DNA of 45,512 nt from Jimgerdemannia flammicorona. Taxonomy: Eukaryota; Mucoromycota; Endogonomycetes; Endogonales; Endogonaceae. Under the pieces are notes generated by a model. The model was not told the DNA's origin, did not search any database, and was given only the letters and a program-made list of their open reading frames with translations. Below, one piece after another: positions 6,140 to 45,512 of this stretch. The stretch lies in NCBI GenBank assembly GCA_003990745.1, contig RBNI01000065.1:1-45512 (forward strand), in the 5' to 3' direction. How positions within the stretch are numbered: the first letter of the stretch is position 1; each line of letters starts with the position of its first letter. A program made the translations under genes and the position numbers.

Positions 6140-7460
6140 CTTTCAGAACTAATTGACTGAGGTTTATTCACTACAGATCAGGGGTATTTATATAATTTTC
6201 AGACTATGTATAAGGCTAGGTAATTGGTTATAACTCATAATTACTAGGAGATACTATTTAGTACACTTTTGAAATTCAGGTGACTAACTAACTGGATAAG
6301 GCTAATTTTATATTTATGATGAATTTAGCTAGTTAATATGCAGTCACTATTTGTACAAATAACTAACTTACTCAATTTGGCTAATAGAGTCATCCTCATA
6401 TATCTTAAAATTTCATATAACTGAGATTATATCATCCTTATCCTTTTTCTTATTTTTTTCAAGAAGTCTGGCCAAATCATTTTCTGCATCTCCCACAATT
6501 ATACTGAGGTCAGTAGTGGGCTCTGGGAGTGAGAAAAGGAAGTTATTAATGTCATCTTTCAATAAAATAAGTAGATTACCATTATTCTCCAAGTTGTCTA
6601 AAGGGATGATATCATCAAAGAATATAAGATCATTTTGCTCTTAAGGTCTCTAATCAATAGTGAGGTCATCCACAAAGTAGGGAATATCTGTGGAATTCTG
6701 AAGATAGTAGACTCTCAAGAGAGGGCCTTAAAATAGTACAATCAGACCATAAATAAATTGATCTAGATTATTCTCTAGGATAGAGTTCCAAAGATCTTAA
6801 ACCTTATTACTTTTAACTATAATAGTAGATTGGGTCTCTTCTGTAACCATTTCTTCAAAATAGTCTATATAGTAGCTTATCAGTTTTTAGATATCAGAGA
6901 CTTTGACATATTCTAAATTAGGAATAGCTCAGGATATATGCCTGAAGAATTGATGGACTTTTTTGGCTAATTTCTATTTATGCTCATCTATACATATAGT
7001 GTCTGCAATTTCTTAAGAGCTGGCTTGAGTAAATTCTTAGTAGAGATAATGTCCCATCTTATATTCTTGTCATATCCAAAGATACTTAGTAGCAGTAGTA
7101 ATTCTTGTCTCTATTTCTTAGTAGTTGAGAGTATAGTAATAGAGGTCTCTTATATAGAGATTCAGACTAGGAGTCCTTCTTATATATAATCTCATTATCC
7201 TCTTAATATCAGTAAATATCTATTCTTGAACTGATGGATCTAAGTGGCTTCTTGATCTTACTACTTAGCAGATAGTAGATATTTTGTTTTATAGTAAGTC
7301 TCTTATTTATGGTTGATATTTGTACTTCTTCTCTTAATACTTCTTTTATATCTTGAGGGTCTTCTCCTTTAGTCCAGAGAGTAGAGTCACCTAACTAATA
7401 CATAGTAGTATATCACTAAGATCATTATGAGTCATTGTAAGTTCAGATGCAAATTATCTT
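6140..7460 (-). mobile_element. Diverged gypsy LTR, minus strand
   Basis: The minus strand carries an ORF homologous to the LTR ORF of the gypsy element, followed downstream by a TATA box with tataaataccccTGA (6181-6195) and gtttattc-type sequence as in those LTRs. The order ORF, then TATA, then aataaa-like signal is that of the 1514-bp LTRs, but the nucleotide sequence is far more diverged and AT-shifted. Outer edges are not resolved. It may be a solo LTR or the 5' LTR of the minus-strand relic at 3480-5330. Confidence 0.6.
6370..7275 (-). pseudogene. Diverged homologue of the LTR-encoded ORF
   Basis: Translation of the minus strand aligns collinearly with the 274-codon LTR ORF. It shows RTPSLNLY, EIETRITTATKYLWI, AKKVHQFFRH, IPNLEYVKVSD, TEETQSTI, DLWNSILENNLDQF, IPYFVDDLTID and then an acidic tail. 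The counterparts in the gypsy LTRs are RTPSIYLG, EMETRITIATEYLQI, AKKIHQIFRH, IPNLEYVRVSD, TEAQSTI, DFWYPILQDNPDQF, VPYFVEENLID and an Asp-rich tail. Many stops (Trp, Arg and Gln positions) and loss of an obvious start show it is dead. Protein-level similarity over about 270 residues between such diverged LTRs argues that the ORF was translated in the common ancestor. Function unknown; no known domain recognised. Confidence 0.7.
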
Positions 7461-10522: not shown

Positions 10523-10617
10523 TGATAGTAATAATAGAGATGAGGGAGAATTCCAGCAACAACTCATGATAGTCCTTCAGACCTCAGAATTTACAGACCT
10601 CACAGCTATGTATACAG
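10523..10617 (+). mobile_element. Element X copy 1, middle segment
   Basis: It continues X after the poly(A) insertion (gatgagggagaattc, ccttcagacctcagaatt, acctcacagctat). It is interrupted at 10618 by the gypsy 5' LTR and resumes at 19331. The uninterrupted counterpart is at 43825-43730 on the minus strand. Confidence 0.75.
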
Positions 10618-10859
10618 TGTAATAGTGATCCCAGAATGATGACATCAGCACAGGAGACAGCCTTTCCTTGTAAGCTACCAGATCGGAGCACAAGAAGATT
10701 ATACAGTATACGAGATGAGCAATGATGACCAACTGTGAGTCATTGTGACCACAGTACAAGCATCCTGAAGAATATAAAAGAAGGATCAAGGAACTGCAGT
10801 AGCAGCAACCAACAAGAACCACCAATCCCAAAATAGCTCAAAGACTTACTACAAACAAA

Positions 10860-11684
10860 ATGCCTGCTGCCCACCAAACCTCAAGGTCAAGGAACCACCA
10901 AGGTATCTCAGTCAAGGAAAGGATGTTCTAAGACATCAGAAGAGCCATGAGGACCTGCTCAAGAAGGACTCCTAGTGTCTACCTGGGTACTGCAGACCCC
11001 TATCACTTTATCCTCTACTATCGTAAAATGGAAACAAGGATCACCATTGCTACCGAATGCCTCCAAATGTGGTAGGAGTACGAAATAGGAAACCTCCTCT
11101 GCTGGGAGTTCCCATAGGCCAGCACCTAAGAGCTACAAGATTCTACTTCCATGGACATATGCGAAACAAGGACAGCTAAGAAGATCCATCAGATCTTCAG
11201 ACATACACCATGGTCGATCCCCAACTTGGAGTATGTTAGAGTCTCAGATTTCAGAGACCTGTCATCCTGCCATATCAATACACTAGAAGCCAGGGTGGCT
11301 ACAGAAGCCCAGTCCACTATCACCCTCAACAGCGAAGAAGTAGAAGACTTCTGGCATCCTATCCTTCAGGACAACCCAGACCAATTCCTGCAAGAATTGA
11401 TCTCAGTATTCTAAGGCCCAAGCATCTGGGTTAGATCCCCTCAAGACCCCACATTTGTCCCCTATTTTGTGGAAGAGAACCTCATAGACTGAAGAGCTCC
11501 AGATCTTGTTCCTGATTTTCCCACCACAGCCGAATGTGATGATGTCATTGGCAATGACATCATCTTGCGCAACATATCCAAAGTATGCAAAATGCGCAAC
11601 CTGCATGAAGAATTCACAGATCTCATCTCCTTCAGTAATAATGATGATAATGAAGCCCCCATGGTCCTGAACTTTCTGCTCTAA
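10860..11684 (+). pseudogene. LTR-encoded ORF (5' LTR copy), 274 codons, unknown function
   Basis: It starts at an ATG 242 bases into the LTR and ends in VLNFLL-stop. This copy has about six in-frame stops, for example MF*DIRRAM where the 3' LTR has MFQDIRRAM (CAA to TAA). No known domain is recognised. Visible features are a basic N-terminal part (SRSRNHQGISVKER), a central conserved block around IPNLEYVRVSDFRDLSS and NSEEVEDFW, a PYFVEENLID motif, and an Asp-rich C-terminus before the hydrophobic end. It lies upstream of the LTR TATA box, that is in U3. A transcript from this LTR would therefore carry not this copy but the one in the 3' LTR. See the 18059 and 44449 copies. Confidence 0.7.
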
Positions 11685-11892
11685 GTTCTTTGTTATACTG
11701 GATAATGCCAGTACCGGTATTCTCATGTAACACTAGATAATGCCAGCACTGGTATTCTGAGATGATATGAAATTGTTCCAGTACTGGCATTTTGATGTAA
11801 TACCAAATAATACCAACCCTGGAACTTAGTAGTTTTAGTTATTGGAATTTATATTTAGCTTTATATCTTAGCAACCATTGAATTATATTTTG

Positions 11893-11900
11893 TATAAATA
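11893..11900 (+). promoter_or_regulatory. TATA box of G1 5' LTR
   Basis: tataaata followed by cccctcttatt and about 25 bases later gaaataaagtcag, so the RNA start and the polyadenylation signal are close together, implying a short R region. Conserved at 19092-19099 and 45488-45495. Confidence 0.7.
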
Positions 11901-12131
11901 CCCCTCTTATTTTCTCTGAAATAAAGTCAGTTCTGGTTTCACTTACACACTTTCTTGCAAGCAATCTAAGAGATAACAAGACAGTTAAAGATAAGAAGTT
12001 TGAGGACTATAAGACCTTGGGAAGGCACTCCAATAAGAACTTGCTTATAACAAACTTGAGTTAGTCTAAGAGATACACCTTGAAGAGAATCTGGCATATT
12101 TGAAGGACTCAGCAACCACTATGTGATAACT

Positions 12132-12150
12132 TGGTACCCATTGGCTAGTG
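12132..12150 (+). other. Primer-binding site of G1
   Basis: tggtacccattggctagtg begins immediately after the LTR. TGG at the first position matches the CCA end of a tRNA. The tRNA identity is not determined. Confidence 0.65.
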
Positions 12151-12157
12151 ATTAAAG

Positions 12158-13678
12158 ATGAATCCCTCACTTTCAAGCTGAAAAATAAACAACCCCACAA
12201 CAACTACCCTGACTACAGGAGTCACCCCTGCAAGAATTCAAGACAAGATGGAAATGCATCCCTCTACATTCTATAGATATACTACTGAAGAGTCAATCCT
12301 GATCTTCATTGAAGACTTTGAACAATTCGCCACCATACGAGCCCTTGGTGTGGATGCTCAATTGGCCCTTCTACCAGTCAGCCTTAGAGGACCTGCCAGA
12401 GACAAGTTCAATATAGCCATCATTGCTGGCACTGATGTAGTCAAACTTGCCAATATGAAGGTCTTCCTCAGAACAACATATTATACCAAAGAGATCAAGC
12501 AAGCTCTCAAGGATCAACTCAATACTATCTGCCAGGGACTTAGTGAAGATCCCAACTCATTCTATATCTGAATCTGCCACCAGATTGTCTTGGCTGGCTA
12601 TGATGACTGCCTCAAGGAACAAATAGCAGATTCAACTTTCCTCAAAGGAGTTCATCCTGAAATTGCCCTAGCAATCCAGTCTACCCCAGCTGTACTGATT
12701 CTTAATCAGAAAGTGGTCTTTGCACAGAGATATTAGACTGCCAGACACCCTGCCGAACACTCAATAGAGAAAATAACTGGCATCAAGATGGAGCCATCAA
12801 AACCAACTAGCATCTTACCTGCTACAGTTGTGAACAGACAACCAACCACACCTACTCCCAAGATAGCCAAAGCTGACCCAGTAGAAGAACTCACCAAGCA
12901 GTTTGCTGAGATGATTACACATCTTGGTGATGTTGTTAGAGAAGTCCAAAGTGCCAACAGAAGACCAGTACAGAGATTTGCAGCTGCTACAGAAGAATGC
13001 AATAACATCACATGCTTCAGATATGGAGAAGAAGACCACTATGCAAAGAATTGCATGACCGAAATGAGACGCAAAGCCCAACCAAGCAATGTTAGCAGAA
13101 CCAGAGAACAAACCAATGCAGTAGTCATTGAGGAGATTGGTGACACTGATGATGAAGAATACTATGAGGAGCTCGAATTCTACCCTGCTACTGAAGGTAC
13201 CAGAACCCGGTCCAAGCCCTATGACAAGAAGAGCAACAGCAAGTCAGTTGGAAGACCAAAGAAGACCCCAGCTGTTACCATTCAAAGCAAGACCCAACCC
13301 GAGGAGATTGATCAAGACATAGAGTTAGACAAAGCTGACCACCAAATTATTGAAGGCACTACTTCAGTCTCAGGAGAAAGTGAAAGCAAGAAGGAACAGA
13401 AGCTGCGTAAGACCAAGATCCACCAGTATGACATCTATAAGGACCTCAAGGAACAGAAAGTCAATGCCACTTTTGGACAGCTAGCTGAAGTCCCTGCCTT
13501 CAGACAGCAGTTGAGAGTAGGACTTGCAACTACTGCCAAGAATCAAGAGTACAAGATTGTAGAAGCTCACAATACACAAGAAGAATCCAAGAACTCAGGT
13601 GAAGAATCTGAAGACCAGTGCAAGACATCAGCCTATACCCTCTGCCAGATTGAAGACTGTATCTTTGATACCATCATT
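12158..13678 (+). pseudogene. gag: G1 Gag
   Basis: The first ATG after the primer site (12158) is in frame with all that follows; a second ATG is at 12248. The capsid-like region includes ILIFIEDFEQFATIRAL and LRGPARDKFN, as in fungal gypsy Gag (residues about 40-200). A zinc knuckle sits at about 13015-13060 with C-x2-Y-x4-H-x4-C; the second Cys is replaced by Tyr (TAT). An acidic/basic linker follows. In-frame stops are at 12179-12181, 12569-12571 and 12733-12735, all explicable by one transition in Arg/Trp/Gln codons. Gag forms the retrotransposon particle. There is no frameshift from Gag into protease, so gag and pol were one polyprotein frame. Confidence 0.75.
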
Positions 13679-14340
13679 GATACTGGTGCTGGAGGATGCC
13701 TCATGAGTAAGAAGGCAATTGACCACCTAGGTTGGGATATTGAAGAGTCTGCCAAGATGATCTATGTCATAGCAGACAGTATACGAGCTACCCCACTTGG
13801 TAAAATCTGAGAAGTCCCCATCAAGATAGGAGGAGCTACTATTTCAGTAGATGTGATTGTTACAAGCACCACTAACTATAACATCCTCATTGGCAACCAA
13901 TGGCTTCACAAGGCCAGGGCCATCATTGACCTCAATGCCCAGAAGATACAGATCAACTACAGAGGGAGAAAGGTATGAGTCTCTATCAATGTCCACAAAG
14001 GAGTCCTACCAGACATGGAGGAAGAAGATGAAGAAGACACAGAGGTCTTCATGCACTCGGTGAACAAGAACAAGAGCAAGACACCCAAGCTCACAGATGA
14101 GCAGTGGTATAACAAGATCATTGATGGCTATGCCCCTCAAGGAAGATGCCCCCACGGTACTAGAATATACTGCTCTGAACACCTGAATGACTGCTGGTCC
14201 TGTATCAGTGAAGTTGGGAAAATCTGCTAACAGAAATATGAGTAAGAAGCCACCGAAGTAAAAAGGAAAGCTGAAGAAGATGACCAGCCCCCAGAGCTTC
14301 AAGCTGACAGTGACGATGAGGAGGAACAAGAATCAGACAT
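13679..14340 (+). pseudogene. pro: G1 aspartic protease
   Basis: Catalytic IIDTGAGGCLMSKK (DTG at 13679-13687) is intact, followed by IADSIRATPLGKI and the typical YNILIGNQWL near 13875-13910. Stops occur at 13808-13810 and in later codons. It would cleave the Gag-Pol polyprotein in the particle. The frame runs on, after a Cys-rich linker (14140-14230) and an acidic stretch, into the dUTPase. Confidence 0.75.
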
Positions 14341-14884
14341 CACCCTCAAGGTCAAGAAGTTTCACTCCAAAGCCAAGATCCCAGAATACAAGACTGAAGG
14401 AGCCATAGGAATGGACCTTGCCAGCATTCAAGATGCTATCCTTGAACCACAGACCACCACCCTACTTAGCACTGGAATTGGAGTCAAGCTACCAGAAAAC
14501 CATGCCAGAATTATCAAGACCAGGAGCAGTCTGGCCAAAAGCAAAATCTCAGTTGAAGGAGGAGTAATTGACCCTGATTACACTGGCAAGATCTTTCTCA
14601 TAGTCAGAAATCACAACCATACCACCCCCTTCGAAGTCAAGAAGCATGACAGAATTGGCCAGATGCTGATCCATGAAATCAAGAAGCCCAAGATCATAGA
14701 AGCCATCAAACTCATCAAGACCAAGAGAGGAGAACAAGGCTTTGAATCTACTGGAAGAGGAGCCTATGCTACTACCAAGATTACCGAACTTAAGCACAAG
14801 AGAGAAAAGGACCAGAACAAGCACACATATACCATTGGAGAAAACTTTCCCCTGGAGGAACAACTCCACAAGATCCTGCACTAG
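14341..14884 (+). pseudogene. G1 dUTPase domain (trimeric dUTPase family)
   Basis: All five trimeric dUTPase motifs are in order. Motif 1 GAIGMDLAS, motif 2 TRSSLAKSK, motif 3 GGVIDPDYTGKI, motif 4 HDRIGQMLI and motif 5 RGEQGFESTG (family form GFGSTG; here Gly reads Glu through GGA to GAA). The enzyme family hydrolyses dUTP to dUMP and pyrophosphate, keeping uracil out of new DNA. Within a retrotransposon it would act during reverse transcription. It sits between protease and RT in one frame with both and is uninterrupted for 157 codons. To my knowledge dUTPases have been reported in some basidiomycete gypsy elements and in some retroviruses, so this arrangement is uncommon but has precedent. 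Confidence 0.88.
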
Positions 14885-15619
14885 AATGAAGAAGTACTTG
14901 CTACAGACTTTAGAGATATCCACAATCAAGAACCCAAGCACTACCATGAAGTTGATACCGGTGACACCAAGCCTATCTACCAGAAAGCCAGATCCATACC
15001 ACCCACCTACAGAGAGTGGCTGCGAGCTGAACTCAAGGAAATGGAAGAAGCCGGAATCATCAAGCAAGCTATCAGCCCCTGGGCCTCACCCATTGTCCTA
15101 GCCCCAAAGAAAGGAAGCAAATCTAGAGAGTTTGCACCAAGACTTTGCATTGACTATAGGAGGCTCAATGCCATCACCAAGAAGGATAGGCAGCCCTTGC
15201 CGAATATTCAAGAAATCCTTACCACTCTTGGAAGTAAAGCCAAATACTACACCACCTTGGATTTGTTCTCAGGCTTCCATCAGATCAGTCTCACTCAAGA
15301 TGCCAGTGAGAAATCAGCCTTCATCACACCTGACGCCACCTATATCTACCTATGAATGCCATTTGGAATATGCAATGCCCCAGCAAGTTTCCAGCAAATG
15401 ATGAACAGAGTCTTTGGTAATGAGATTGGAAAATGGCTCTTTGTCTATATTGATGATGTGATCATCTTCAGCAACACTGCATGGGAACATGTCAATCACA
15501 TACAGCTAGCCCTCAAGAGGCTCAAGGAGCATGGCCTCTACATCAAGTCCAAGAAATGTAAGTTTGCTGCTCAAGAAATCACCTCATCAACCAGACTGAA
15601 ATCCATACAGACCCTATGA
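14885..15619 (+). pseudogene. G1 reverse transcriptase
   Basis: Motifs in order: AELKEMEEAGIIKQAISPW, RLCIDYRRLNAITKKDR, YYTTLDLFSGFHQISL, MPFGICNAPASFQ and the catalytic FVYIDDVIIFS (about 15441-15473). It copies the genomic RNA into DNA. A TGA replaces the residue before MPFG (15353-15355). Near 15590 about 20 bases corresponding to the FLGH region are missing, and the frame shifts by one for the RNase H. Confidence 0.85.
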
Positions 15620-16240
15620 AGATCGAGACTGTTGCAGTCTACCCAAGACCCAGAATAACCACAGAAGTCCATGCCTTCCTTAGACTGGCCAGCTACTATA
15701 GAAGATTCATCAGAGGATACTCCAACATTGCAGCACCTATCTATGAGCTACTGAAGAAGGAGACCAAATTCGAATGGACCAAGGAGCACCAAGAAACCTT
15801 CAATGAACTCAAGACCAGGTTGACCTAAGCACCCATCCTCAGAAGACCAGACTGAAACCTAGAATTCATCCTGCAGATAGATGCAAGTGCTATAGGACTT
15901 GGAGCAGTCCTAGCTCAGAAAAAAGATGGATATGAATATGTCATCTCCTATGCAAGCTGAGGTATCTGTGGAGCAGAACAGAACTATGAGTCATATAAGC
16001 TTGAATGCTTAGCAGTAGTTTGGGCAGTAGACAAGTTCCACTACTACTTAGCCAGGAAACACTTCACTATTCAAACAGACCACTCTGCTCTTGCCTGGCT
16101 ATTCCACACTCTGAACTCCAAAGGAATATATGCCAGATAGATCTACCGGCTACAAGAGTATGACTGTACTGTCAAGCACCACTCAGGAAAGACCAATACT
16201 AATGCTGATACACTCTCAAGGACACCTCGAAATACCCCCA
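15620..16240 (+). pseudogene. G1 RNase H domain
   Basis: In the shifted frame it reads TDPMKIETVAVYPRP, LRLASYYRRFIRGYS and LLKKETKFEW (RT connection), then RNase H with LQIDASAIGLGAVLAQ, YKLECLAVVWAVDKF and IQTDHSALAWL (Asp, Glu, Asp). Stops occur at 15826-15828 and 15853-15855, among others. It degrades the RNA strand of the hybrid. A further frame change occurs between 16250 and 16370 before the integrase. Confidence 0.8.
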
Positions 16241-16329
16241 TCAAGACTATTCAATATGAATAAGGAGCTATACTATGGATTAATCAGCTACCTTGGGCAG
16301 CGGAAGATGCCCAACTACCTCAAACCCTG

Positions 16330-17503
16330 GACAATCACCATCATCAACTGGACTTGGAAACAGTTTGAATTAGACAACACTATACTCAGAAAAGGAGGAA
16401 AGCTAATAATATCTGAATACAAGAAGTATCAAGTAATGAAGGAAGTACATGAGCAAGGACACTTAGAAGGAACCAACACATACAACAAGGTAAGAAGAAC
16501 TATGTAGTGGCCCAAGATAGAAGAAGACCTGTGCCAATTTGTCAAAGGGTGTGACAAGTGCCAAAAACAGAAACAAGATCAGTAAGACCAGGCACCTGGA
16601 TCATCAAGAATTGAGCCTATCCCCTTCCACCACATTACAATGGATATCATTGGACCACTACTAGTAACACTATCAGGAAACTGCTATATTATAGTTATTA
16701 TAGACCTCTTCACCAAATAGATAGAGGCAGGAGTATTACAAGAAGCCAATGCCCTCTCTATAGCTGACTTCCTGCATCAAGAAATCATCTGCTGCTACAA
16801 GACACCAAAGCAAATCACAACAGACTGCAGAACAGAATTTGTCAATGGATTCCATGAGATAATGTATCAGAAATACAAGATCCAGCACATTAAGACAACT
16901 GTGTACCACCCTTAAGGAAATGGACAGATAGAAAGAACTAACAAGACCCTCAAGAACATCCTAGCAAAGATCTCAGAGACATATGAGAATTGGGATAACT
17001 ATCTCCCAACCACCTTCTCTGTCCTACAAGATATATAGTCACAGAGCACACATTTTACCCCAAGAGAGCTGCTCTTCAGAGAAGAAGATTCTGATAGAAC
17101 CTCAGCCACAAATCTAGACCTAACTTGGAGATGGGTTGATGCAGAAATTCAGAGACTACACCAAATCAGGAAGAAGGCTGAAGATTACATTACTAAGTCA
17201 CAAGCACTGACAAGGAAGAATGTGGAAAAGAATCACAAGGCCCTAGAACCCATCCAAATTGGAGAAAAGGTTCTACTGTATTGAAATATGGTAGAAGCCT
17301 CATGGTCACGAAAACTGGAGCCCAAATGGGAAGGACCCTTCTACGTGCAAGATATCAAGGGAACCACCTTCTGGCTTAGAAAAATCTCAGGGACCATACT
17401 GCCTACCACAGTACATAGGAACAGACTCAAGAAGTACCATGAACCTATACAAGAAAAGCAAAATGTGATGACCACCTGTGAGGTTCTAGTCTGCAAATCA
17501 TAA
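16330..17503 (+). pseudogene. G1 integrase
   Basis: The HHCC zinc region is visible as HEQGH ... CDKCQKQK (16450-16575). The core has ITMDIIGPL (first Asp), ITTDCRTEF (second Asp) and, about 35 residues on, GNGQIERTN (Glu). The C-terminal region with KLEPKWEGPFYVQDI and HRNRLKKYHEP matches the GPY/F-type module. No chromodomain is seen after it. It would insert the cDNA into the chromosome. In-frame stops include 16505-16507. Confidence 0.82.
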
Positions 17504-17816
17504 CAGCATATCCCATGACCAGCAGGCTATCTGTCTGGACCATTCTCTAAGGGATACAGCACTGGCAACTACTCATCCATGAGACTTTCACAGTCAGAGG
17601 AGTTCAAACCATCAACTGATTGGTCAAGATCAGAATCAGGCCCTTGCTCTATATGAAGGGAGTGATCCTTCACCATCATGCCAAAATACAAAGGAAAGAC
17701 ACTAGCCCATAAATACCACTTTTCGACCCCTTGCCAGAGGTTATGGGATCAGCAAATTTTTCAGGACTGGACCAATGAATAAGGATGCTCAGGAAGATCC
17801 TTATTCAGAAGGAAGA
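17504..17816 (+). other. G1 tail between integrase and 3' LTR, with purine tract
   Basis: About 310 bases with coding-like composition but stops in all frames; no domain recognised. It ends in cagaaggaaga immediately before the LTR, a weak polypurine tract that would prime plus-strand synthesis. Confidence 0.55.
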
Positions 17817-18058
17817 TGTAATGGTGACCCCAGAATGATGACATTAGCACAGGAGACAGCCTTTCCTTATAAGCCACCAGATTGGAGCACAAGAAGATTA
17901 TACAGCATACAAGATAAGCAATGATGACCAACTGTGAGTCATTGTAACCACAGCATAAGCATCCTGAAGAATATAAAATAAGGATCAAGGAACCACAGTA
18001 GCAGCAACCAACAAGAATCACAAATCCCAAAATAGCTCAAAGACTTACCACAAACAAA

Positions 18059-18883
18059 ATGCCTACTGCCCACCAAACCTCAAGGTCAAGGAACCACCAA
18101 GGTATCTCAGTCAAGGAAAGGATGTTCCAAGACATCAGAAGAGCCATGAGGACCCACTCAAGAAGGACTCCTAGTATCTACCTGGGTACTGCAGACCCCT
18201 ATCACTTTATCTTCTACCACTATGAAATGGAAACAAGGATTACCATTGCTACCGAATACCTCCAAATATGGCAGGAGTATGAAATAGGAAACCTCCTCTG
18301 CTGGGAGTTCCCACAGGCCAGCACCCAAGAGCTACAAGATACTACTCCCATAGATATATGCAAAATGAGAATAGCTAAGAAGATTCATCAGATCTTCAGG
18401 CATGCACCATAGTTGATCCCCAACTTGGAGTATGTTAGAGTCTCAGATTTCAGAGACCTGTCATCCCACCATATCAATATACTAGAAGCCAGGGTGGCTA
18501 CAGAAGCCCAGTCCACTATCACCCTCAATAGCGAAGAAGTAGAAGACTTCTGGTATCCTATCCTTCAGGACAACCCAGACCAATTCCTGCAAGGATTGAT
18601 CTCAGTATTCCAAGGCCCAAGTATCTGAATTAGATCCCCTCAAGACCCCACATTTGTCCCCTATTTTGTGGAAGAGAACCTCATAGACTGGAGAGCTCTA
18701 GATCTTGTTCCTGATTTTCCTGCCACAGCTGAACGTGATGACATCATCAGTGATGATGTCATCCCACATGACATACCCGAAGTATATGAAATGCACAACC
18801 TGTATGAAGAATTCGTGGATCTCATCTCCTTCAGTGATGATGATGATGATGAAGCCCCCATAGTCCTGAACTTTCTGCTCTAA
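18059..18883 (+). pseudogene. LTR-encoded ORF (3' LTR copy), 274 codons, unknown function
   Basis: Best-preserved copy in G1: only two internal stops (18410-18412, TAG for Trp; 18626-18628, TGA for Trp). The start ATG lies 242 bases into the LTR. Conserved blocks: SRSRNHQGISVKERMFQDIR, RTPSIYLGTADPYHF, METRITIATEYLQIW, LLCWEFPQAS, AKKIHQIFRH, IPNLEYVRVSDFRDLSS, NSEEVEDFW, FVPYFVEENLIDWRA, and an Asp tail ending VLNFLL. No signal peptide or membrane segment is evident. It is in U3, so it would be present in the 3' part of the genomic RNA downstream of integrase. I do not recognise any family. Confidence 0.75.
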
Positions 18884-18892
18884 GTTCTTTGT

Positions 18893-19020
18893 TACACTGG
18901 ATAATACCAGCACTGGTATTCTCATGTAATACCAGATAATGCCAGCACTGATATTCTGAGGTGATGCAAAATTATTCCAGCACCAGCATTTTGATGTGAT
19001 ACCAAATAATGCCAACTCTG
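18893..19020 (+). promoter_or_regulatory. U3 repeat cluster upstream of the LTR TATA box
   Basis: Three to four degenerate copies of gataatgccagcactggtat/ttctgatgtgatacca lie 70-200 bases upstream of the TATA box, as enhancer repeats often do. Equivalent clusters are at 11698-11825 and 45293-45418. Confidence 0.5.
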
Positions 19021-19330
19021 GAACTTAGTAGTTTTAGTTATTGGAATTTATATTTAGCTTTATATCTTAGCAATCATTGAATTATATTTTTTATAAATAC
19101 CCCTCTTATTTCCTCTGAAATAAAGTCAGTTCTGGTTTCACTTACACACTTCCTTGCAAGCAATCTAAGAGATAACAAGACAGTTAAAGATAAGAAGTTT
19201 GAGGACTATAAGATCTTGGGAAGGTACTCCAATAAGAACTTGCTTATAACAAACTTGAGTTAGTCTAAGAGATATACCTTGAAGAGAATCTGGTATATTT
19301 GAAGGACTCAGCGACCACTACATGATAACA

Positions 19331-20552
19331 GTAGCCTTTTTGGAGCAGCTGATAGTAGATGTAGATTGCTCTTTTCTGCTGCTACTTATTTAAATTCCCT
19401 CAGTATGACTCAATTTATCTTATGCTCTTTTTAGGGTCCACAGCTCACTACTTGTTTTAAATTCCCTCAGCATGATTCAATTCACCTTATACTTTTCTTA
19501 AGGTCTACAGCTCTATGGCAAGATCTGCTGACTTTATTCACAATATCTAGTAAAGATAAAGAAAGGCTGGAGGATGTTACAAGGTATACCTTTGGTGGCT
19601 GAGCTATTGAGTCAATATATTGTATAGTAGAGATCTCAAAAGAAACAGAAGTAAGTCTTCATGAGCAATCTTGTACAACTCATCAGCATATGACTCATCA
19701 ATATGCAAATCACTCATATATGCTCTTTTCTGAAAATACCCATCTCTGTATTTTATTTAACTTTATTTTTATATGGTCTCCTCTAAAAACTTCTATGCAA
19801 TATATATGCAACTCATCTACATACAACCTATCTATACACAACTTGGCTCCTCAGATCAGGGCTTAGTTCTATTGGAAGAGAGAATTCAAAGTTACCCAAA
19901 TTCAATCATGTCTGATATCTGGATCAAATAGAGAAGTTCAAGGGCAAGATATTTATTATAAGCTATACCAGTATCACTATCAAGGCTTGGGGGTCTATAT
20001 TCAAATCAGAGCTAATCATTCTTGACCAAGAGGTCCATTGACCAGCAGGAGTATTCAATAATAAAGAGAACTATATCATTATTAATAATCATAGAGAGGT
20101 GGTTGCAATAGTGGTAAGAAACCTCTATAGTGATGAGCTTTACCACCACATCAACAAGATTTATAGAGATTATATCAAATACTAGGTAGCAGGAAAGAGG
20201 GGGCAAAAAAAGCAAGGAGGGGGGGTTTGGATGGAAATTGGATATACTACAATACTGACAAAGGGTGGGTTCTAGAGTTCCAAAGTTCCAAAATCCCCTG
20301 TACTCATCTTTCTTTTTTTTTATTTTATTTTCTCTCTAGATAATCAATCTTTCTTCAACATACTCTTTTTGATACAATTCTAGAAATATACAAGATTCTG
20401 TATCCTTACTGGAACTTTAGAAGTACTATTAAAGAGCAAACTACATATAAGCATGATATGGCCTGTATGGCAATAGCAGCTATGATCTGGGGTTCTTTGA
20501 GTAGGTTGGTAGAGTATATAGCAGGCCAGCTTAGTGGTGATCTCAGTATAGC
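19331..20552 (+). pseudogene. Element X copy 1, coding remnant (unknown protein)
   Basis: It is collinear with X copy 2 (43735 down to about 42380). Readable protein pieces are DKERLEDVTRYTFGG, ISKETEVSLHEQS and IWGSLSRLVEYIAGQL. Stops interrupt the frame at positions that are codons in copy 2. Only about three copies of the 15-bp repeat (19797-19845) are present, against about 13 in copy 2. Homology to copy 2 stops at 20552, exactly where the hAT-like TAGTGCCCTG end begins, so a hAT inserted here or truncated it. No known domain. Confidence 0.6.
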
Positions 20553-20930
20553 TAGTGCCCTGCAAACCTGACCTGCAAAACAGCTAACCTGAAATTAGAT
20601 GTCACCTGTCTTTAACCCAATCTGGAATTATATGTCACCTATCTTTAACCTGACCCAGAATTATACATTACCTATCTTTAACCTGACTCAGAATTGTACA
20701 TCACCCATCTTTAACCTGACCTAGAAAGATATATTACCTATCTTTAACCCAATCTGAAATTAAACATAACTCATCTTTAACCTGACCTGGAAATATATAT
20801 CACCCAATCTGTTATTTATCCTTAACCTAAACCTGAATCTGACCCCTGAACCCAACCCTGAACCTGACCCCTGAATCTGACCCTAAACCTGACCCTCTGA
20901 ACTCTGCCCTGAAAAAATGATTCAGATAAT
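20553..20930. repeat. hAT-1 terminus and sub-terminal repeats
   Basis: It begins TAGTGCCCTGCAAACCTG at the break in element X. At least seven tandem units of about 35-40 bp follow, of the type tatctttaacctgacccaga, then a shorter ctgaaccctgacc series (20830-20910). hAT transposases usually bind sub-terminal repeats. A single related unit in inverted orientation is at 26072-26125 and might be the other end. Confidence 0.6.
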
Positions 20931-27464: not shown

Positions 27465-30400
27465 TCCTAAGGTAAGCCACTCCTTACCCAACCCCCCCTA
27501 CCAGTCTATCCCTCAAATTCTCCCACTGCTCCCATGCATTATCTCCCCTATACATAACCCCCAAATAAACCCCAATGGTCTGCCAAAAGTCACCAAGTAT
27601 CTCACACTCTCCTAGTCAATGTTCAGGCATCTGGACATATTTTCCTTCCTGCTCTACATTATGACACTCCTTATAGTTGAAACAACCTCCCACAATAAGG
27701 TAACCTAAGTGGAAGTTGAGCATTACATTCCTCCTCAGCATGTGCCACCAGACCACCCAGTACTTCAGCAGCATCCACTTCTTCACCACCACACTTCAGG
27801 CCCAAACACTATGCCAGTTCTACTCTTCTCCAATTTCAACTCCTTGTCAACCACTAGGCTACAGATCCTGACCAGGTTCCCTTTGGCAATCTATTCTGTA
27901 ACTAATGTTGAACTCAATTAAGGGAATACTACTCAGCAATACTCAGTCCCATCTCTACATCACTGAGTCCTAAGCCACCTCTCCTTCATTTTCCTGCCAA
28001 TGAATTCCAATGCAGTGTACCCCCTCCACTACCCCCCACCAGAAACCTCTATATTGTAATTGTTCAGTATTCCAAAGCCCAACCAATGAAAGGAGATCTC
28101 CAGTTGAGCCTCTTGAAGATGATCACCTCTCCCAGACTTTCTGCAGTAGGGAAACCCAATTACCTCCTCTCAACTCCACCACTCTCTTTAACCACCATGC
28201 TCTCAAGCAGTATAGCCTTTTGGGGAAGTCAACCAGCCCAAGTCCACCTCTTGCCACTGGTAAGGATAGGATCTCCCAACCAATCTGACTCCTTCTACTA
28301 GCCCAGATCCACCCCTTTGCCAGCTTCATCAATCTCTTCACCACCCAAGCTGGGAAGTCCAGATGATAAGCCAGATACTATAACTTCAGCAGCCAGTAGA
28401 CATTCAAAATCGAGACATGCCCTGCCAGAGATAAGTGGTGACCCCCCCAACTCTGCAGGGCCTCCTCCCAGAGTCCAATTCTCTGCTCCCACCAAAGTCT
28501 GGGTAGAACCAACCCATATATTGAAAAATAAATACCTAAGTACCATACTGTCTCACCAGTGGAGATGATTGTTCCAATAACCTCCCCTCCCACCAGACCA
28601 TCGCCTAGTATATTTCACACTTGTGCCAATTAAGTTTAGCCCCAGAGTACTCCTCATATCACTCCACTGTCTTCTTAAGCTCCTCAATGTCAGCAATTGA
28701 TTCCAGGCCAACCACTATGTTATTTGCAAAGGCCCCAACTTTCTACCCAATTCCAAAGACAGAGAGCCCTACTATCTTTTGCCTAATTCTGTCCATTAGG
28801 GGCTCTAGGAAGAGAGCATATAAAATGAGAGACAGTGGGTCCCCCTGGGGCACCCCCCTACCCAGAGGAAACACTACCCCTCTATGTCCATTACACATGA
28901 GTACAGCCCTACTCTCTTCCAGCAGGCTGACCATTGCTGACCGGAACTGGCATGGAACCCCAGTTCTATTCAATACTTTTGCCAACCAGACTCATCACAC
29001 CCAGTCATAAGCCTTCTCCTAGTCCAAGAAGACCAGCTGCCCATCTAGTCCACAGGTCCATACCCCTTCAATAACTCTATATACCCAGGCTGTGTCATCC
29101 CTAATGAGCTGACCTCCTACAAAGCCCCTCTGCTCAACACCCATGACTTGCTGGGCCACCTTTTGCAGCCTTGTGACCACCACCTTAGTTACCAACTTTC
29201 TGTCCATATCCAGCAGCATAATCAGCTGCCAGTTCTTCCAGTCCTCTTAGCTCCCTTTGTTCTTATAAGCAGTGTCACCAGCCCCAGATCCTGCTCCCCC
29301 ACCCATCTCTCTATCTGTAATATAAAATCACACAATGTCATCATCTCCCCCAGTACTCCTGGGACTCCCACCATTTTCTTCCAGAAGTCTCAGGGCAGAC
29401 CATCCTCCCCAGGTACTGTGCCTGGAGTCATTGTGGTAAGAACCTAGCAGATCTCATCCTCTTGTACTGACAGCATCAAGTCACCTAGCCCATCTACTTG
29501 TGGCAGGTGCCAATCCCCCAATGCCCAGTCGATGGCAGCAGCATCCACCCCACTCTCCTCCTCACTCCACAATCCACTCCATCACTCCTTTAACAATTCA
29601 AGAATATCTTGTATACCATGCACTAGTATACCATCAGAGTTCAGTACCCCCTCCCACCATTGCTGCACCCTTCTTGCCCAAAGGGCCCTCGTAAGATACT
29701 TGGAAGACCTCTCCCTTTCCTCCAGACCTTACCAACAAAGCTGTGCTGCCAAGCCCTGTACCCTTGCTTCTTCCTCTTCCCACAGCACCTATTGTAGTTC
29801 CCTAACCTCTATTTTCACCCTCATTAATCTCCAATCTTCTTCCCCCTCCAACATCACCAGTCTTGCCCACTCCTCCAAGAGTCTAGACAGTCTAGCAGAA
29901 GCTCATCACACCCACTGCCTTCTCTGCTTCCCAGCCTCCTTGCCAGCCTCCCTCCAGTAGATCCTGGCCATCTCTTTTATCCTCATCTACCGAATACCAA
30001 CTGGGGCACCTTCCTGCCTCCAGCTTTCTACCCTCAGTTGAATGTCCTTAGCCTACTCATCCCACTGGGTCCTATCATCTAATAAGAAGGAATTGAGACA
30101 CTAATGTCCAGGCCCATCCCCACTTCCTCCAAAATGTCCCTGTCCTAAAAGCCCCCAGTAATCTGACCATAGATATCATTCCACCTCCAGTGACTTCCAA
30201 ACATCCAAGCCCCAGCAACTAGCTATCAGAATCTAGTCAATCCTTGTCTCCAGGCCTCCTGCCCAATGCATGTATACCCTCCTATCCCCCCAGCACTCTC
30301 TACCAGCATCTACCAGAGTACTAAGCCTTTTTTACTTCCTCTCATGTCACCAGCCCATCACTCCTACTCTCAGCTCCCCATCCTCCATCTGTTCTATCCA

Positions 30401-30855
30401 TCAGTATATCCTGCACCATATTGAAGTCTCTACCAAGCACATCCACCCCAGCCTCCATAAGGATCCCACTCTCCTGGAGACCCTCCACCCAATCCATACA
30501 CTCACTCTATATGGTAGGACAGTAACAGGAGCCCACTGTGACTGGCTCCCAACCTACACATATCCACTCACCCCAGACCAGTCTCTTTCCCCAGCTCCTC
30601 ATATCCCTTATCTCTCCTTGGCCTTTTCAAATCAGAATCCCAACCTTGTCCATCCAAACTGCTACATCTCCCCATTCCTTCATCCATTCTAGTCTATCCA
30701 AATCATTCTCACACCTGATATCCTGCAAGAGGAAGAGATCAGCCTCCAATCCCTTCAACCAAGTAAAAATGTTCCTACATCTAGCAGCACCTCATAACCC
30801 ATTCACATTCAAAGGTTGTACTATTCATAATGAAATACTATGTGTTATCAAATCT
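27465..30855 (-). pseudogene. LINE A ORF2: endonuclease, reverse transcriptase, zinc finger
   Basis: Recognised through RT motifs: VVFPLGRGVPQGDPLSLILY (28865-28806), FLEPLMDRIRQKIVGLSVFG, and then GAFANN in place of the catalytic FADD (28719-28730; both Asp codons are now Asn). Upstream on the same strand LGRDFNMV and the RID...ILIASCWG block mark the APE-type endonuclease. Downstream comes NVYWLLKL. About as many stops as in LINE B. The natural stop aligned to LINE B is disturbed by a small indel near 27465. Confidence 0.85.
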
Positions 30856-30857
30856 TT

Positions 30858-32881
30858 CTCTACTGCTCCAAGTTCATCTTGTCCTGCACCAAGTCCAGAT
30901 TATGTTCTACAGTCACCTCCTCCTCTTCAGCCCTCTGAGCCTCCAATCCAGCCAACAATTTATTTATCTCCCCATCTGCCTTCTTCTCAAACTCCTCCTG
31001 GTACTTTAGGCAGGCCTCCTGCCAGAGCTGCAATCCATGACACTTGTTCCAGCAGTATTCGGCCCTCTCCCCAGCAACACCCACCAGCTCTGCCTCCTGC
31101 TCCTTATCCACCTAATACCCCTCCTCCTCCAGATACACCACAAGGATTTCCATCTTCAATGCCATCATCACTCCATCTCTCTGCAGAATCCATGCCCAAT
31201 GCTCATCCCCCACCACTCTCAAGTTCACCTCCCCCAACTCTTCAGCTGCCAGGTTATTCATCATCTGGCACATCCAAAGTAGGTTCCCCACCTCCTTCCC
31301 TCCAGGAGTCACCAGCCTCCCTCCATCCAGTATTGTGGTATCAGCCCCAGTACTCACAGACTCATCTTATACCTCTGGGACATCCACTAGTTCCTCCTCT
31401 CCTGCCACCACCACTTGTCTCCTGTTTGTCACCTCTGGAACTCTGAATTTCACTCACTGGGCCCCCCACATTGGCACATCCTCCACCACCCTGCTCTGAG
31501 AAGCTGGGCCTCACCTGATAAGAGAAGTAGAGATAGGGGAGGCCTCCTAGTTCTCCTCCCAAACCTCAAATGTACCATCAGCATACAGGTCTTTTCCAGT
31601 TGCCTCCCTGTCCTCCCCAGTCTCCTTCCCAGTATTCTCACCCCCTTCACCAGCCCAGACACTCGCTTTGACCCCCCCCATGTCCTTCATTCCATTCACA
31701 TCCTTCAGTGGTCTGCCTTCCAGCTTAACTAGTAGTTCCTTATATCTCTTATGCCCCTGAGCTCTTTCCCACTGCTCCTTGTTCACTTGAATCTGCTTTC
31801 TATCCACTACCTCCAAATGTGTTGACTCCACAAAAGCCTTCCAAGCCTTTGCTCACTACTCCACAACACCACTCAACTCTTCCAGCACTTCCAATAAGTT
31901 CTCTTCCTCCTCCTCACTCCCCTTCACCCTTGTCACCTTGTACAAGATCGCTCCTCAGACCATTACTGAAGGCCAGTCCCTTGCCTTCCCAGTAGCTTTT
32001 TTCCCTGCCAGCTGAATCCTCACATCCACATCTCCAGTCCTGAGTAAGGTCCCTTCTCAGACTCTGAATCTGATATCCACCACCTCTCTATACTCTGCTA
32101 TGACCTCCTCAACTCTCCTTCTTGTCTCCACCACCATCACTATGGGCACTCCTTTCACCAACAGTTGAACCACCCTGGGATCCCATTTCAGGCATCATAC
32201 CATCAGAACATATACCTTCCCAACCACCAATCCAATCTTCAGTACCTCCTCCAGTGGCTCAGCCTCCTCAAAGTCCACCTCCACTCTCTCCAATCTCTTC
32301 AGAAACTTTACTGATACAGTACCTGCCACCTACTTAGTGATAAGCCCCAGCATCATTTTTGCCATCACTACCAGACCCCAGAAGCACAATGTAATCATAA
32401 ATACTGAGATCAATTTTTTGAGTAATAGGGCCACTGCCAGGCCCATCACACCATCTGCCAAATCTCTTTACCTTCTAAGCCTCAACTGCTCAGCTGTGCC
32501 ATCCACAGTTACATCTGGATTTTTTTTCAGATTAGCAGTCCCATCACCATCAGCCATCATACTCCCCCCAGCCACTACTCCCCCAGCTTCACTGCCCCCA
32601 CTTCCAAGGGCTACTCTCCCACATACTGCCACCTTTTCTGCCTCCTTGCCTTTCCTCAGCTAGCTCTCCAGCCCTGACACCTGCTGTCTCCCCTTCACTG
32701 TCTCCACAAAGCTCACCCTCCCTGACTCTTGGCCTCTACCACTGCCTCCACCTCTTCCACATCTGCCCATCAGCAGTCCCCTCATACTCTCCCCCAGGCC
32801 AGGGCCTCTCCCCACCTACTGCCAGTCGAATGTGCTTGGGCCACCCTGCCCAGTACATACCTTGGATTGCCTGTCAGTCAT
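30858..32881 (-). pseudogene. LINE A ORF1 protein
   Basis: It aligns with ORF1 of LINE B. The end is well preserved: an 83-codon frame (31111-30860) reads a Glu/Ala-rich helical stretch (ERAEYCWNKCHGLQLW, INKLLAGLEAQRAEEEE) and ends MNLEQ, likely a coiled coil. The plus-strand proline-rich 302-codon frame over this region is its antisense shadow. Confidence 0.75.
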
Positions 32882-34957: not shown

Positions 34958-36981
34958 ATGGCAAACAACAAGTACTCTGGGGTACATACTGAGCAGGGTG
35001 ACCCTAGTGCATTTGACTGGCAGCAGGTGGGGAGAGGTCCTGGCCTGGGGGGTGACATAAGAGGGCTGTTGGCAGGAGGATGAGGAGGAGGTAGAGGAGG
35101 CAGGGGAGGACAGGGGTCTGAGAGGATGAGCTTCACAGAGACAGTGAAGGAGAGACAGCAGACAACAGAGCTGGAGAGTTGGCTGAGGAAAGGCAAGGAG
35201 ATGGAGATGATGACTGTTTGTAGAGGAGTAGCACTTGGGGGTGAGGGCAGCGGAGCTGGGGGAGTAGTGGCTGGGGGGGGTGTGATGGCTGATGGTGACA
35301 GGACTGCCAATTTGGAAAAAAATCCAGATGTGATGGCTGATGGTGCGGCTGAGCAGCTGAGGCTTAGAAGGTAGAGAGACTTGGTGGATAGTGTGATGGG
35401 CCTGGTGGTGGCACTATTACTCAAGAAATCAATCTTAGCATTTGTGGTGATACTGTGCTTCCAGGGCCTGGCAGTGATGGTGAAAATGGTACTGGGGCTT
35501 ATCACTAAGCAGGTGGCTGGAGCAGCATCCATAAAGTTCCTGAAAGGATTAGAGGAAGTAGAGGTGGGTTTTGAGGAGGCGGAGCCTCTGGAGGAGGCAC
35601 TGAAGGTTAGATTGATCATTGGAGAGGTGTGTGTCCCAATGGCATGATGTCTGAAATGGGATCCCAGGGTGGTCCAACTGCTGGTGAAAGGAGTGCCCAT
35701 GATGATGGCAGTGGAGACAAGAAAGAGAGTTGAGGAGGTCATGGCGGAGTATGGCAAGGTAGTGGATATCAGGTTCAGGGTCTGGGAAGGGACCTTGCTC
35801 AGGACTGGGGACATGGATGTGCAGATTCGGCTGGCAGAGAAAGAAGCTATAGGGAAGATGAGGGACTGGCCTTCAGTGATGGTCTGAGGGTGATCTTATA
35901 CAAGGTGACAAGGGTGAAGGGGAGCAAGGAGAAGGAAGAGAACTTGCTGGAGGCACTGGAAGAGATGAGTGGAGCAGTGGAGCAGTGGGAAAAGGCTTGG
36001 AAGTCCTATGTAGAGTTGACACACTTGGAGGTAGTGGATGAAAAGAGGATCAGAGTAGACAAGGGACAATGGGAAATAGCTCAGGGCTGTAAACATCAGA
36101 AGGAGCTACTGGCTAAGATGGGGAGTTGACTATTGAAGGAGGCTGGTGGAATGGTGGAACCAGAGGGTGCCAAGGCGAGTGTCTGGGCTGGCAAGAAGGA
36201 TGGGAGTGCAGAAAAAGGAACAGAGGAGGACAGGAAGGTAGCTAGTGGCAACCTGTTTGCTGATGGTATATTCGAGGTCTGGGAGGAGGACTGGGTAGAA
36301 TCGCCTACCCCTACCCCTCTCATCAGGTGAGGGCCAGCTTACTAGAGCAGGGCAGGAGAAGATGTGCCAATGAAGGGGGCCCAGCAAGTACAATTTGGTA
36401 TGCCTGAGGTAGCAAAGGGGGGACAGGTGGTGGAGGTTGGGGAGGAGGAATTGGTGGATATCCCAGAGGTGTGGGATGAGGCAGTGAGTACCGGGGCTGA
36501 TACCACGATGTTGGATGGTGGAAGACTGGTGACCCCAGGAGGGAAGGAGGTTGGAAATCTACTTTGAATGTACAGGATGATGAATAACCTGGCAGCTGAA
36601 GAGCTTGGGGAGGTGGACTTGAGGGTAATAAGTGATGAGCATTGGACATAGATATTGTAGAGCGATGGTGTAGAGTTGGCATTGAAGGCAGAGATCCTTG
36701 CAGTATATCTGGAGAAGGAAGGGTATGAGGTGGATAAGGAGTGAGAGGCTGAACTAGCAGAGGTTGCTGATGAGAGGGCCAAGTACTGTTGGGCCAAGCG
36801 ACACAGATTGCAGCTCTGGCAGAAGGCCTGCCTAGAATACCAAGAGGAGTTTAAGGAGAAGGCAGATGGAGAGATGAATGAGCTGTTGGCTGGATTGAAG
36901 GCTCAGAGGGCTGAAGAAGAGGCAGTGACTGCAGAGCATAATCTGGACTTGGCGCAGGAAGAGATGAACTTGGAGCAGTAG
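34958..36981 (+). pseudogene. LINE B ORF1 protein
   Basis: The ATG at 34958 (MANNKYSGVHTEQGDPSAFD) is the first in the element and in frame for the first 920 bases; one frame slip occurs near 35885. A central region (about 35665-35885) with VVQLLVKGVPMMMAVETRKR and VVDIRFRVWEG looks like a nucleic-acid-binding fold of the kind seen in LINE ORF1 proteins, but I cannot name it with certainty. The C-terminus (36690-36980) is a Glu-rich likely coiled coil ending MNLEQ. In LINEs this protein coats the RNA. Confidence 0.7.
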
Positions 36982-36983
36982 GG

Positions 36984-42130: not shown

Positions 42131-42480
42131 TGATACAAGCATACAGTTGGGTGAACCCTTGGCCCAGGACCTCATACTGCCAGGCTGTACTGGTGGATGC
42201 CTGCCCTTAGTCCAGCCCTGGGAGCCCTGGCTTGGAAACCTGCTGAAATGGATGACAACTGGTCAGTCCTTTTTACGTGTGGGGGGGCAGAAACCCCTGG
42301 GCCACAGAAATCCCCCAGGCTGTAGTACTCCAAAAAAGCAGAGCTCCTCACCTTATATGGTATACTAAATTGTACCAAGAATGTATATACAGCTGTGCCA
42401 AGATCACCACCAAGCTGGCCTACCATATGCTCTATCAATCTGCTCAAAGAACCCCAGATCATAGCCACCATTGCCATACA
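42130..42480 (-). pseudogene. X protein, middle segment
   Basis: An open 101-codon frame with AMVAMIWGSLSRLIEHMVGQ, AVYTFLVQFSIPYKV and LEYYSLGDFCGPGVSAPPH. The first 30 residues match copy 1 before its break at 20552. Possible intron boundaries lie around 42240. Function unknown. Confidence 0.5.
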
Positions 42481-44206: not shown

Positions 44207-45512
44207 TGTAATGGTGACCCCAGAATGATGACATCAGCACAGGAGACAGCCTTTCCTCACAAGCCACCAGATTGGAGCACAAGAAGATTATACAGCATAT
44301 GAGATAAGCAATGATGACCAACTATGAGTCATTGTGACTACAGCACAAGCATCCTAAAGAATATAAAAGAAGGATCAAGGAACTGCAGTAGCAGCAACCA
44401 ACAAGAACCACCAATCCCAAAATAGCTCAAAGACTTACCACAAACAAAATGCCTGCTACCCACCAAACCTCAAGGTCAAGGAACCACCAAGGTACCTCAG
44501 TCAAAGAAAGGATGTTCCAAGACATCAGAAGAGCCATGAGGACCCACTCAAGAAGGACTCCTAGTATCTACCTGGGCACTGCAGACCCTTATCACTTCAT
44601 TCTCTACCGCTGTGAAATAGAAACAAGGATCACCATTACTGCTGAATGCCTCCAAATATAGTAGGAGTACAAAATAGGAAACCTCCTCTGCTGGGAGTTC
44701 CCACAGGCCAGTACCCAAGAGCTACAAGATGCCACTCCCATGGATATACATGAAACAAGGATAGCTAAGAAGATCCATCAGATCTTCAGGCATACACTAT
44801 GGTCGATCCCCAACTTGGAGTATGTTAGAGTCTCAGATTTCAGAGACCTGTCATCCCACCGTATCAATGCACTAGAAGCTAGGGTGGCTACAGAAGCCCA
44901 GTCCACTATCACCCTCAATAGTGAAGAAGTAGAAGACTTCTGGCACCAGGACAACCCAGACCAATTCCTGCAAGGATTGATCTCAGTATTCCAAGGCCCA
45001 AGCATCCAGGTTAGATCCCCTCAAGACCCCACATTTGTCCCCTATTTTGTGGAAGAGAACCTCATAGACTGGAGAGCTCCAGTTCTTGTTCCCGATTTTC
45101 CCACCACTGTCGAACGTGATGATGTCATCGATGATGTCATCCTGCGCAACATACCTGAAGCACACGAAGTACACGAAACACATGATCTGTATGACAAATT
45201 TGCGGATCTCATCTCCTTCAGTGATGATGATGATGATGATGATGAAGAAGCCCCCATGGTCCTGAACTTTCTGCTCTAAGTTCTTTGTTATACCAGATAA
45301 TACCAGCACTGATATTCTCATGTAACACTGGATAATGTCAGTACTGGTATTCTGAGGTGATGCGAAATTGTTCCAGCACCGGCATTTTGATGTGATACCA
45401 AATAATACCAGCTCTGGAACTTGGTAGTTTTAGTTATTGGAATTTATATTTAGCTTTATATCTTAGCAACCATTGAATTATATTTTGTATAAATACCCAT
45501 CTTATTTCCTCT
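44207..45512 (+). repeat. Third gypsy LTR (G1 family), cut by the window end
   Basis: It starts TGTAATGGTGACC like the 3' LTR of G1 and covers 1306 of 1514 positions, with ORF, U3 repeats (45293-45418) and TATA box (45488-45495). It is inserted in X copy 2. Whether it is a solo LTR or the 5' LTR of another element lies outside the window. Confidence 0.88.
44449..45279 (+). pseudogene. LTR-encoded ORF (third copy), 276 codons, unknown function
   Basis: It starts 242 bases into the LTR, as in both other copies. One internal stop only (44659-44661, TAG for Trp); the last 179 codons are open. Compared with the 5' LTR copy of G1 there are four indels: minus 9 (HPILQDNPD to HQDNPD), minus 3, plus 9 (extra residues around HEVHETHDLY) and plus 9 (longer Asp run). 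All are in frame and net +6 bases. It ends DDDEEAPMVLNFLL. This pattern is hard to explain unless the frame was under selection. No known domain. Confidence 0.78.

Follow-up and report, generated by a model that had tools for sequence, protein, structure and literature searches.

A formerly selected coding frame within the U3 of a Ty3/Gypsy-type LTR of Jimgerdemannia flammicorona, and its possible expression from each LTR

The long terminal repeats (LTRs) of a Ty3/Gypsy-type retrotransposon of Jimgerdemannia flammicorona carry a real gene within U3 that was formerly under selection, though none of the copies in the window is open. The window is the whole stretch of 45,512 nucleotides of contig RBNI01000065.1 that was analysed. 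Conserved TATA boxes and an AATAAA accompany the reading frame, and the frame is also present in LTRs that look solo. A few vertebrate retroviruses are known to have accessory genes in U3, and solo LTRs are usually regarded as dead scars or bare promoters.

The element and its LTRs

Three LTRs of a single family, beginning at 10618, 17817 and 44207 as had been reported in the earlier note, were found in the window. The element and its parts are as follows.

10618..19327, plus strand: Ty3/Gypsy-type element around the LTR with the U3 ORF, flanked by a 4-bp target duplication, ACAG, at 10614-10617 and 19328-19331
10618..12128, plus strand: 5' LTR, followed by a primer-binding-site-like TTGGTACCCATTGG from 12131
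13643..17500, plus strand: degraded pol, with protease-like, dUTPase, reverse transcriptase (RT), RNase H and integrase pieces
14369..14755, plus strand: dUTPase domain between protease and reverse transcriptase (PF00692, E = 3.4e-27)
17817..19327, plus strand: 3' LTR, directly preceded by the polypurine tract AGAAGGAAGA at 17807-17816
44207..45512, plus strand: third LTR of the same family, cut off by the window end

The hallmarks of a Ty3/Gypsy element, namely direct LTRs, a target duplication, a primer-site-like motif and a polypurine tract, were all present, with the motifs identified by eye. The 3' LTR had earlier been drawn to 19330; its end was moved by eye to 19327 because the ACAG duplication occupies 10614-10617 and 19328-19331. 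The order of pol was PR-RT-RNaseH-INT, with E-values of 0.009 (protease), 7.4e-17 (RT), 1.8e-17 (RNase H), 2.6e-4 (H2C2) and 0.004 (rve), the protease, H2C2 and rve matches being below the Pfam cut-offs. No env was found in this element of the window. A whole-genome search for the dUTPase family returned 5391 first-look candidates, with 150 matches from the best 150 scored, and dUTPase-bearing elements seem to be very numerous in the genome. The window also contains a large imperfect inverted repeat (27544-32874 and 34968-40313, with arms of ~5.3 kb that are 78-81% complementary) and further inverted pieces at 19456-20553 and 42391-43658 (79-85%).

Further LTR copies were collected from the genome (134.8 Mb, 7754 contigs) by a DNA search that gave 2707 first-look candidates, of which the best 40 were scored. 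Copies L001-L008, whose positions coincide with those of the window LTR and L009-L016, were left out together with partial matches and matches below 85%. The resulting 38 copies and the 3 window LTRs form the set of 41 used below, which, being the best matches to the window copy, is biased to near relatives. Columns with fewer than 30 letters were excluded from the alignment tallies of gaps, stops, C>T changes and dinucleotide indices. Inspection by eye showed the TTGGTACCCATTGG primer motif, or a variant differing by 1-2 bases, 3' of the LTR in 10 of the 41 sampled copies, and the AGAAGGAAGA polypurine tract or a similar 1-2-base variant 5' of the LTR in 18. The insertion sites of the 41 copies also look TA-rich by eye (for example, 4-bp duplications of ATAT, ATAA and CTAT), which is perhaps a target preference of the element.

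The U3 reading frame, its decay and its past selection

The frame starts 242 bp into each window LTR, at 10860, 18059 and 44449, and ends before the U3 repeats and a TATA box, just as had been described. The same description had each window LTR holding an ORF of 274-276 codons; this had to be revised, as 6, 2 and 2 in-frame stops leave none of the three open.

10860..11684, plus strand: U3 ORF of the 5' LTR, 825 nt including the stop, 6 premature stops
18059..18883, plus strand: U3 ORF of the 3' LTR, 825 nt or 275 codons including the stop, 2 premature stops
44449..45279, plus strand: U3 ORF of the third LTR, 831 nt including the stop, 2 premature stops, last 204 codons open

Open ORFs were identified in 9 of the 41 copies, all outside the window, eight with an ATG start and one with ATA. 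Counted along each copy, in-frame stops over the 41 copies numbered 65 in the ORF frame versus 406, 828, 406, 426 and 950 in the other frames. Among the 58 stops tallied in window-copy columns, 56 could be reached from the majority codon (CAA, CAG or TGG) by a single C>T or G>A change and 2 required two steps. Gaps common to at least 2 copies were multiples of three in 9 of 9 cases within the ORF, compared to 1 of 14 in the 3' flank and 0 of 3 in the 5' flank; most ORF gaps sit in an acidic tail rich in GAT, and multiples of three could arise there by triplet slippage alone. Indels that are not multiples of three, which the earlier note had named as evidence against a gene if they appeared in a larger copy set, were checked in the 41 copies: ORF length was divisible by three in 38 of them, and 3 of the 5 single-copy gaps broke the frame.

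Six LTR pairs located on the same contig (e.g. 10618/17817) differed by 5.7-7.9% transitions versus 0-0.37% transversions per site. Transitions exceeded transversions 18- to 86-fold in five of the pairs, and the sixth had 114 transitions and no transversion. Since transversions are few and transitions many, the insertions appear to be young by transversions and to have been heavily mutated afterwards. CpG observed/expected was 0.1 in the window, and C>T variation over the copies struck CpG, CpA and CpC sites alike. Classical RIP was considered and rejected, because its index pattern was absent despite the widespread C>T change: TpA/ApT was 0.69-0.82 and (CpA+TpG)/(ApC+GpT) 1.36-1.54 in six copies. 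The index is described in the available portion of PMC4165359, which likewise reports no RIP pattern by index for the Tuber melanosporum genome.

With this transition excess and CpG depletion, deamination would be the main threat to the element, and the U3 protein could be an anti-silencing factor directed against host DNA methylation or C>T mutation, in the manner of VANC of the Arabidopsis VANDAL transposons. Transposon-encoded VANC proteins are a precedent in the published accounts, as far as these were available. However, the U3 protein has no similarity to any family found, and the copies are heavily mutated nonetheless; this explanation is the main rival of the regulatory reading set out below but is considered unlikely.

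Database searches identified seven relatives of the U3 protein, P0001-P0007, with 58-87% identity to an open copy, on jgi/ena contigs of 0.8-1.6 kb that are presumably from metagenomes. P0002 is full length and 72% identical to the open copy. A search with P0005 returned only itself and P0001, and scans of viral and prokaryote contigs contained no relatives. No Pfam domains are listed for P0001-P0007. Sequence searches of Pfam, NCBIfam, PHROGs and PDB gave nothing over cut-off and only weak matches at chance level. Pfam contains a Sag model; no Pfam match over cut-off was obtained for two window pieces, three open copies and three relatives, and two weak chance-level matches were to other families. 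By these searches, the U3 protein family appears to be new and is unrelated to any known family in the libraries searched.

A second LTR family with a relative of the U3 ORF, henceforth referred to as family B, was found by a protein search of the genome with P0005 as the query (3714 candidates, best 150 scored, 164 matches). A DNA search for family B gave 46 matches from the best 40 scored of 1437 candidates. Most B copies, and 15 extra main-family copies, stem from the protein or DNA search and are therefore biased too. One B copy lies in the window.

6374..7057, minus strand: family B ORF relative, 53% identical to P0005, with 10 stops; the LTR that holds it begins near 7577, with an interruption near 6090

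The ORF was broken in all 15 family B copies, with at least 5 stops in each within the matched region. These copies are mutually ~69-86% alike in pairwise pieces, and the main family and family B share 64-69% identity in aligned DNA. The B ORF lies downstream of integrase-like sequence in L050 and L065 and upstream of a common leader-like region in, among others, L053, L056 and the window copy, positions that are expected of 3' and 5' LTRs, respectively. No complete family B element was found among the copies read. The common 3' end of the family B matches was rejected as an LTR end, since it is an artefact of an insertion nested in the window copy. This insert, below 6090 on the minus strand, is CpG-rich and apparently undecayed in a window that is otherwise CpG-depleted; it begins with TGTAATAGAACGAGACGCG and carries a TATA and an AATAAA of its own (by eye), and its appearance is that of a young LTR from a different element.

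Third-position transversions between the families were compared using 8 open main copies and 15 B copies, at codons whose first two bases agree. Transversions were observed at 1103 of 3657 four-fold comparisons (0.302) versus 941 of 9236 two-fold comparisons (0.102), a ~3-fold difference from which it follows that the U3 protein was selected. Site-level means were 0.348 (four-fold) and 0.150 (two-fold), a difference reached in 2 of 10,000 label permutations. Purine/pyrimidine differences between the families were distributed 35:17:35 by codon position over 231 codons (chi-square P = 0.024), and the equal values for positions 1 and 3 indicate that the constraint on the protein was only moderate. 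Shared within-family transversions fell 1:1:4 by codon position, too few for a test.

The earlier note had also held that dN/dS near 1 would count against a gene. This comparison was run in part, and omega was 0.72 within the family and 0.56 across the two families, while shifted frames gave 1.02-1.57 (1.14 and 1.34 across the two families). The within-family value was obtained with kappa at the program bound (50) and with internal and terminal branches pooled, and its signal of selection is diluted and masked by C>T decay after insertion. As judged from the sequence comparisons, a coding frame lying wholly within U3 was under moderate protein-level selection in the past. A captured host gene with no role in the element, or an ORF held open by composition rather than function, is very improbable, given the frame-specific third-position constraint in the degeneracy test and the existence of relatives down to 58% identity.

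Regulatory sites and the possible role of the U3 protein

Candidate regulatory sites flank the ORF on both sides and are listed for the 3' LTR.

17935..17941, plus strand: TGAGTCA, 37 nt upstream of TATA1
17972..17978, plus strand: TATAAAA (TATA1), present in 41 of 41 copies and proposed as promoter P1 of the U3 gene
18907..18916, plus strand: CCAGCACTGG, a CCRGYRCYGG palindrome, one of those between the ORF and TATA2
19092..19099, plus strand: TATAAATA (TATA2), proposed as the element's promoter P2 and present in 39 of 41 copies, with some of the sampled copies incomplete
19119..19124, plus strand: AATAAA, poly(A)-signal-like, 27 nt after TATA2, in 35 of 41 copies

TATA1 was located 85-88 nt upstream of the start codon in every one of the 41 copies, and TATAAAA was present within positions 100-240 in all 15 extra main-family copies; the chance expectation from base composition is 0.06 per 140 nt, and the copies share descent. 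The upstream TGAGTCA, which we take to be a Gcn4/AP-1-like site, was found as TGAGTCA or TGACTCA at the 37-nt spacing in 36 of 41 copies, and neither form was found beyond position 240 of the 41 LTRs. All 15 extra main-family copies contained TGASTCA. The palindrome CCRGYRCYGG was present as 1-3 sites after position 1060 in 39 of the 41 copies and absent from the first 1060 bp of all 41. It also occurred in 12 of 15 extra main-family copies but in 0 of 15 family B copies, and the U3 palindromes were consequently rejected as a target common to both families. Also 3' of the ORF, the copies differ in how many U3 units of ~35 bp they contain (gaps of 31-37 and 105 bp), with extra U3 pieces in L016 and L024.

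In family B, ATATAAAAG was found upstream of the ORF in 11 of 15 copies, with an exact TGASTCA at most 130 nt further upstream in 8 of those 11. TATAAATA followed by AATAAA 24-27 nt on was observed in 12 of 15 copies, and such pairs also occur elsewhere in the AT-rich family B loci. Two TATA boxes and one AATAAA thus appear to have outlived divergence to the 64-69% DNA identity of the two families, a comparison to be read with their shared descent and the AT-rich B loci in mind.

Six of the 41 LTR copies look solo, with exact 4-bp duplications in five and one mismatch in the sixth, and no adjoining primer or polypurine motif by eye. Three of the six have an open ORF; an excess of open ORFs in these LTRs was rejected, as the comparison with 6 of 35 was not significant (P = 0.11). 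Since the ORF has a TATA box in front of it and an AATAAA behind it within one LTR, each LTR, whether 5', 3' or solo, may be a complete gene that forms a transcription unit of its own. In 24 of 41 copies an ATG intervenes between TATA1 and the start of the ORF, which counts against a separate promoter for the ORF; in the 2 of 6 copies inspected that have one, this ATG looks like CpG decay.

The earlier note had proposed that the protein is expressed from the genomic RNA, by way of the 3' LTR copy. That RNA would indeed carry the ORF downstream of integrase, and both promoters can be used by MMTV sag according to the available portion of PMC9412291. However, with TATA1 and AATAAA inside one LTR such a route is not needed, and the near-fixed spacing of TATA1 in 41 of 41 copies, together with its counterpart in 11 of 15 family B copies, argues against an incidental TATA1. 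Production of the U3 protein from the 3' LTR copy on a genomic or spliced subgenomic RNA is accordingly regarded as quite improbable.

The U3 protein has 273-279 residues in the open copies and combines a basic start with an acidic tail and LISF and LNFLL-like ends. The net charge of the first 40 residues was +5 and +8 in two full-length proteins (L026 and P0002), and that of the last 60 residues was -4 to -15 in 8 of 8 proteins. Acidic tails that contain hydrophobic residues are frequent in activation domains. No DNA-binding domain was found by profile and sequence searches. Hydropathy analysis of the two full-length proteins revealed no membrane segment (highest 19-residue Kyte-Doolittle means of 0.60 and 0.74); among the partial proteins the highest value was 0.48-0.97 in 5 of 6 and 1.78 in P0004. 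An env-like role is weakly opposed by these values. AlphaFold modelling of 9 sequences gave a pLDDT of 38.9 and a mostly helical prediction at very low confidence.

This helical prediction and the basic start would suit a U3-expressed accessory of the particle with a structural or nucleic-acid-binding role (gag-like, chaperone or integration factor). Comparison with one 129-residue Gag-region piece, however, gave an hhalign probability of only 0.15%, and the acidic tail speaks against RNA binding at that end, making a particle accessory distinctly unlikely.

The reading tentatively favoured, though at somewhat less than even chances, is that each LTR is a complete small gene whose protein would act as an early trans regulator of the element's own promoters. 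It is favoured because of the acidic hydrophobic tail, the layout of the sites, and the analogy with foamy virus Tas and the MMTV U3 promoter. P1, comprising TGAGTCA and TATAAAA, would drive the U3 protein, and its RNA would end at the AATAAA of the LTR, a signal that the element itself would also use. As the P1 RNA should end in the same LTR, the 5', 3' and solo LTRs would be equal carriers of the gene. The genomic RNA would start from P2, just before the AATAAA. The protein, presumably nuclear, would act early and in trans on the promoters of its element, by binding at the U3 repeats upstream of P2 or by recruiting factors there. This mode would resemble that of Tas, which is made from an internal promoter and acts on the LTR. 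A doubtful extension is that LTRs are autonomous units for a new trans-acting regulator, in which case solo LTRs would keep supplying the regulator and dispersed LTRs would together make up a gene network that acts on surviving elements.

Comparison with known systems

The frame, its past selection and the null domain searches bear out the earlier proposal of an accessory gene inside the U3 of a Ty3/Gypsy-type LTR, without a recognised domain and in a place like that of MMTV sag. A literature search, which partly covered titles and abstract openings and had subscription papers such as Tmt1 2008 outside its range, met only MMTV and yielded no earlier description of an ORF in the LTR or U3 of such elements. 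What looks to be new here is the type of element in which the accessory U3 gene is found, together with its protein family, each LTR having the appearance of a complete gene.

Several elements share the dUTPase. In the portion of PMC2864245 that was available, the fungal Gypsy element PosPlaTy3-5 has a dUTPase between protease and RT, as here, and a dUTPase-bearing element of the ascomycete Tuber melanosporum is cited to the Tmt1 paper. Unlike here, that portion mentions no U3 ORF, which Tmt1 may nonetheless have; a figure legend also lists an additional ORF of unknown function. Bdelloid rotifer LTR elements similarly combine a dUTPase between PR and RT with an extra ORF, but this ORF3 is named beside gag and pol and, in the available part of the source, is not placed in the LTR (PMC5408684). 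The crapaud element of Podospora is a fungal LTR element with a diversifying U3 and RIP; its LTRs measure 339-443 bp, and the ORFs named in the portion available are gag and pol only (PMC10787394).

The foamy virus internal promoter with tas/bet serves an early regulatory gene as an additional promoter, as is proposed for P1. It sits in env and the function of Tas is demonstrated, whereas the function of the U3 protein is inferred here (PMC12789967, available portion). A similar layout is that of MMTV, in which, according to the accessible part of PMC9412291, sag/naf lies in U3 with a U3 promoter termed P2; as here, the ORF is in U3 and a dUTPase is encoded in pol, and a further U3 promoter is able to drive the ORF, as is proposed for P1. 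MMTV Sag acts as a superantigen on the vertebrate immune system, whereas the present element is of Ty3/Gypsy type and yielded no env, and the two are likened by their layout.

If the U3 gene is transcribed from its own LTR promoter, quite different LTR retrotransposons have reached the same design as vertebrate retroviruses, and solo LTRs could be live genes. The U3 protein family comes with conserved regulatory sites alongside and a genome full of copies. Should the dispersed LTRs form a regulator network, the MMTV two-promoter U3 design would have a counterpart outside the vertebrates, built on a protein family unrelated to any found.
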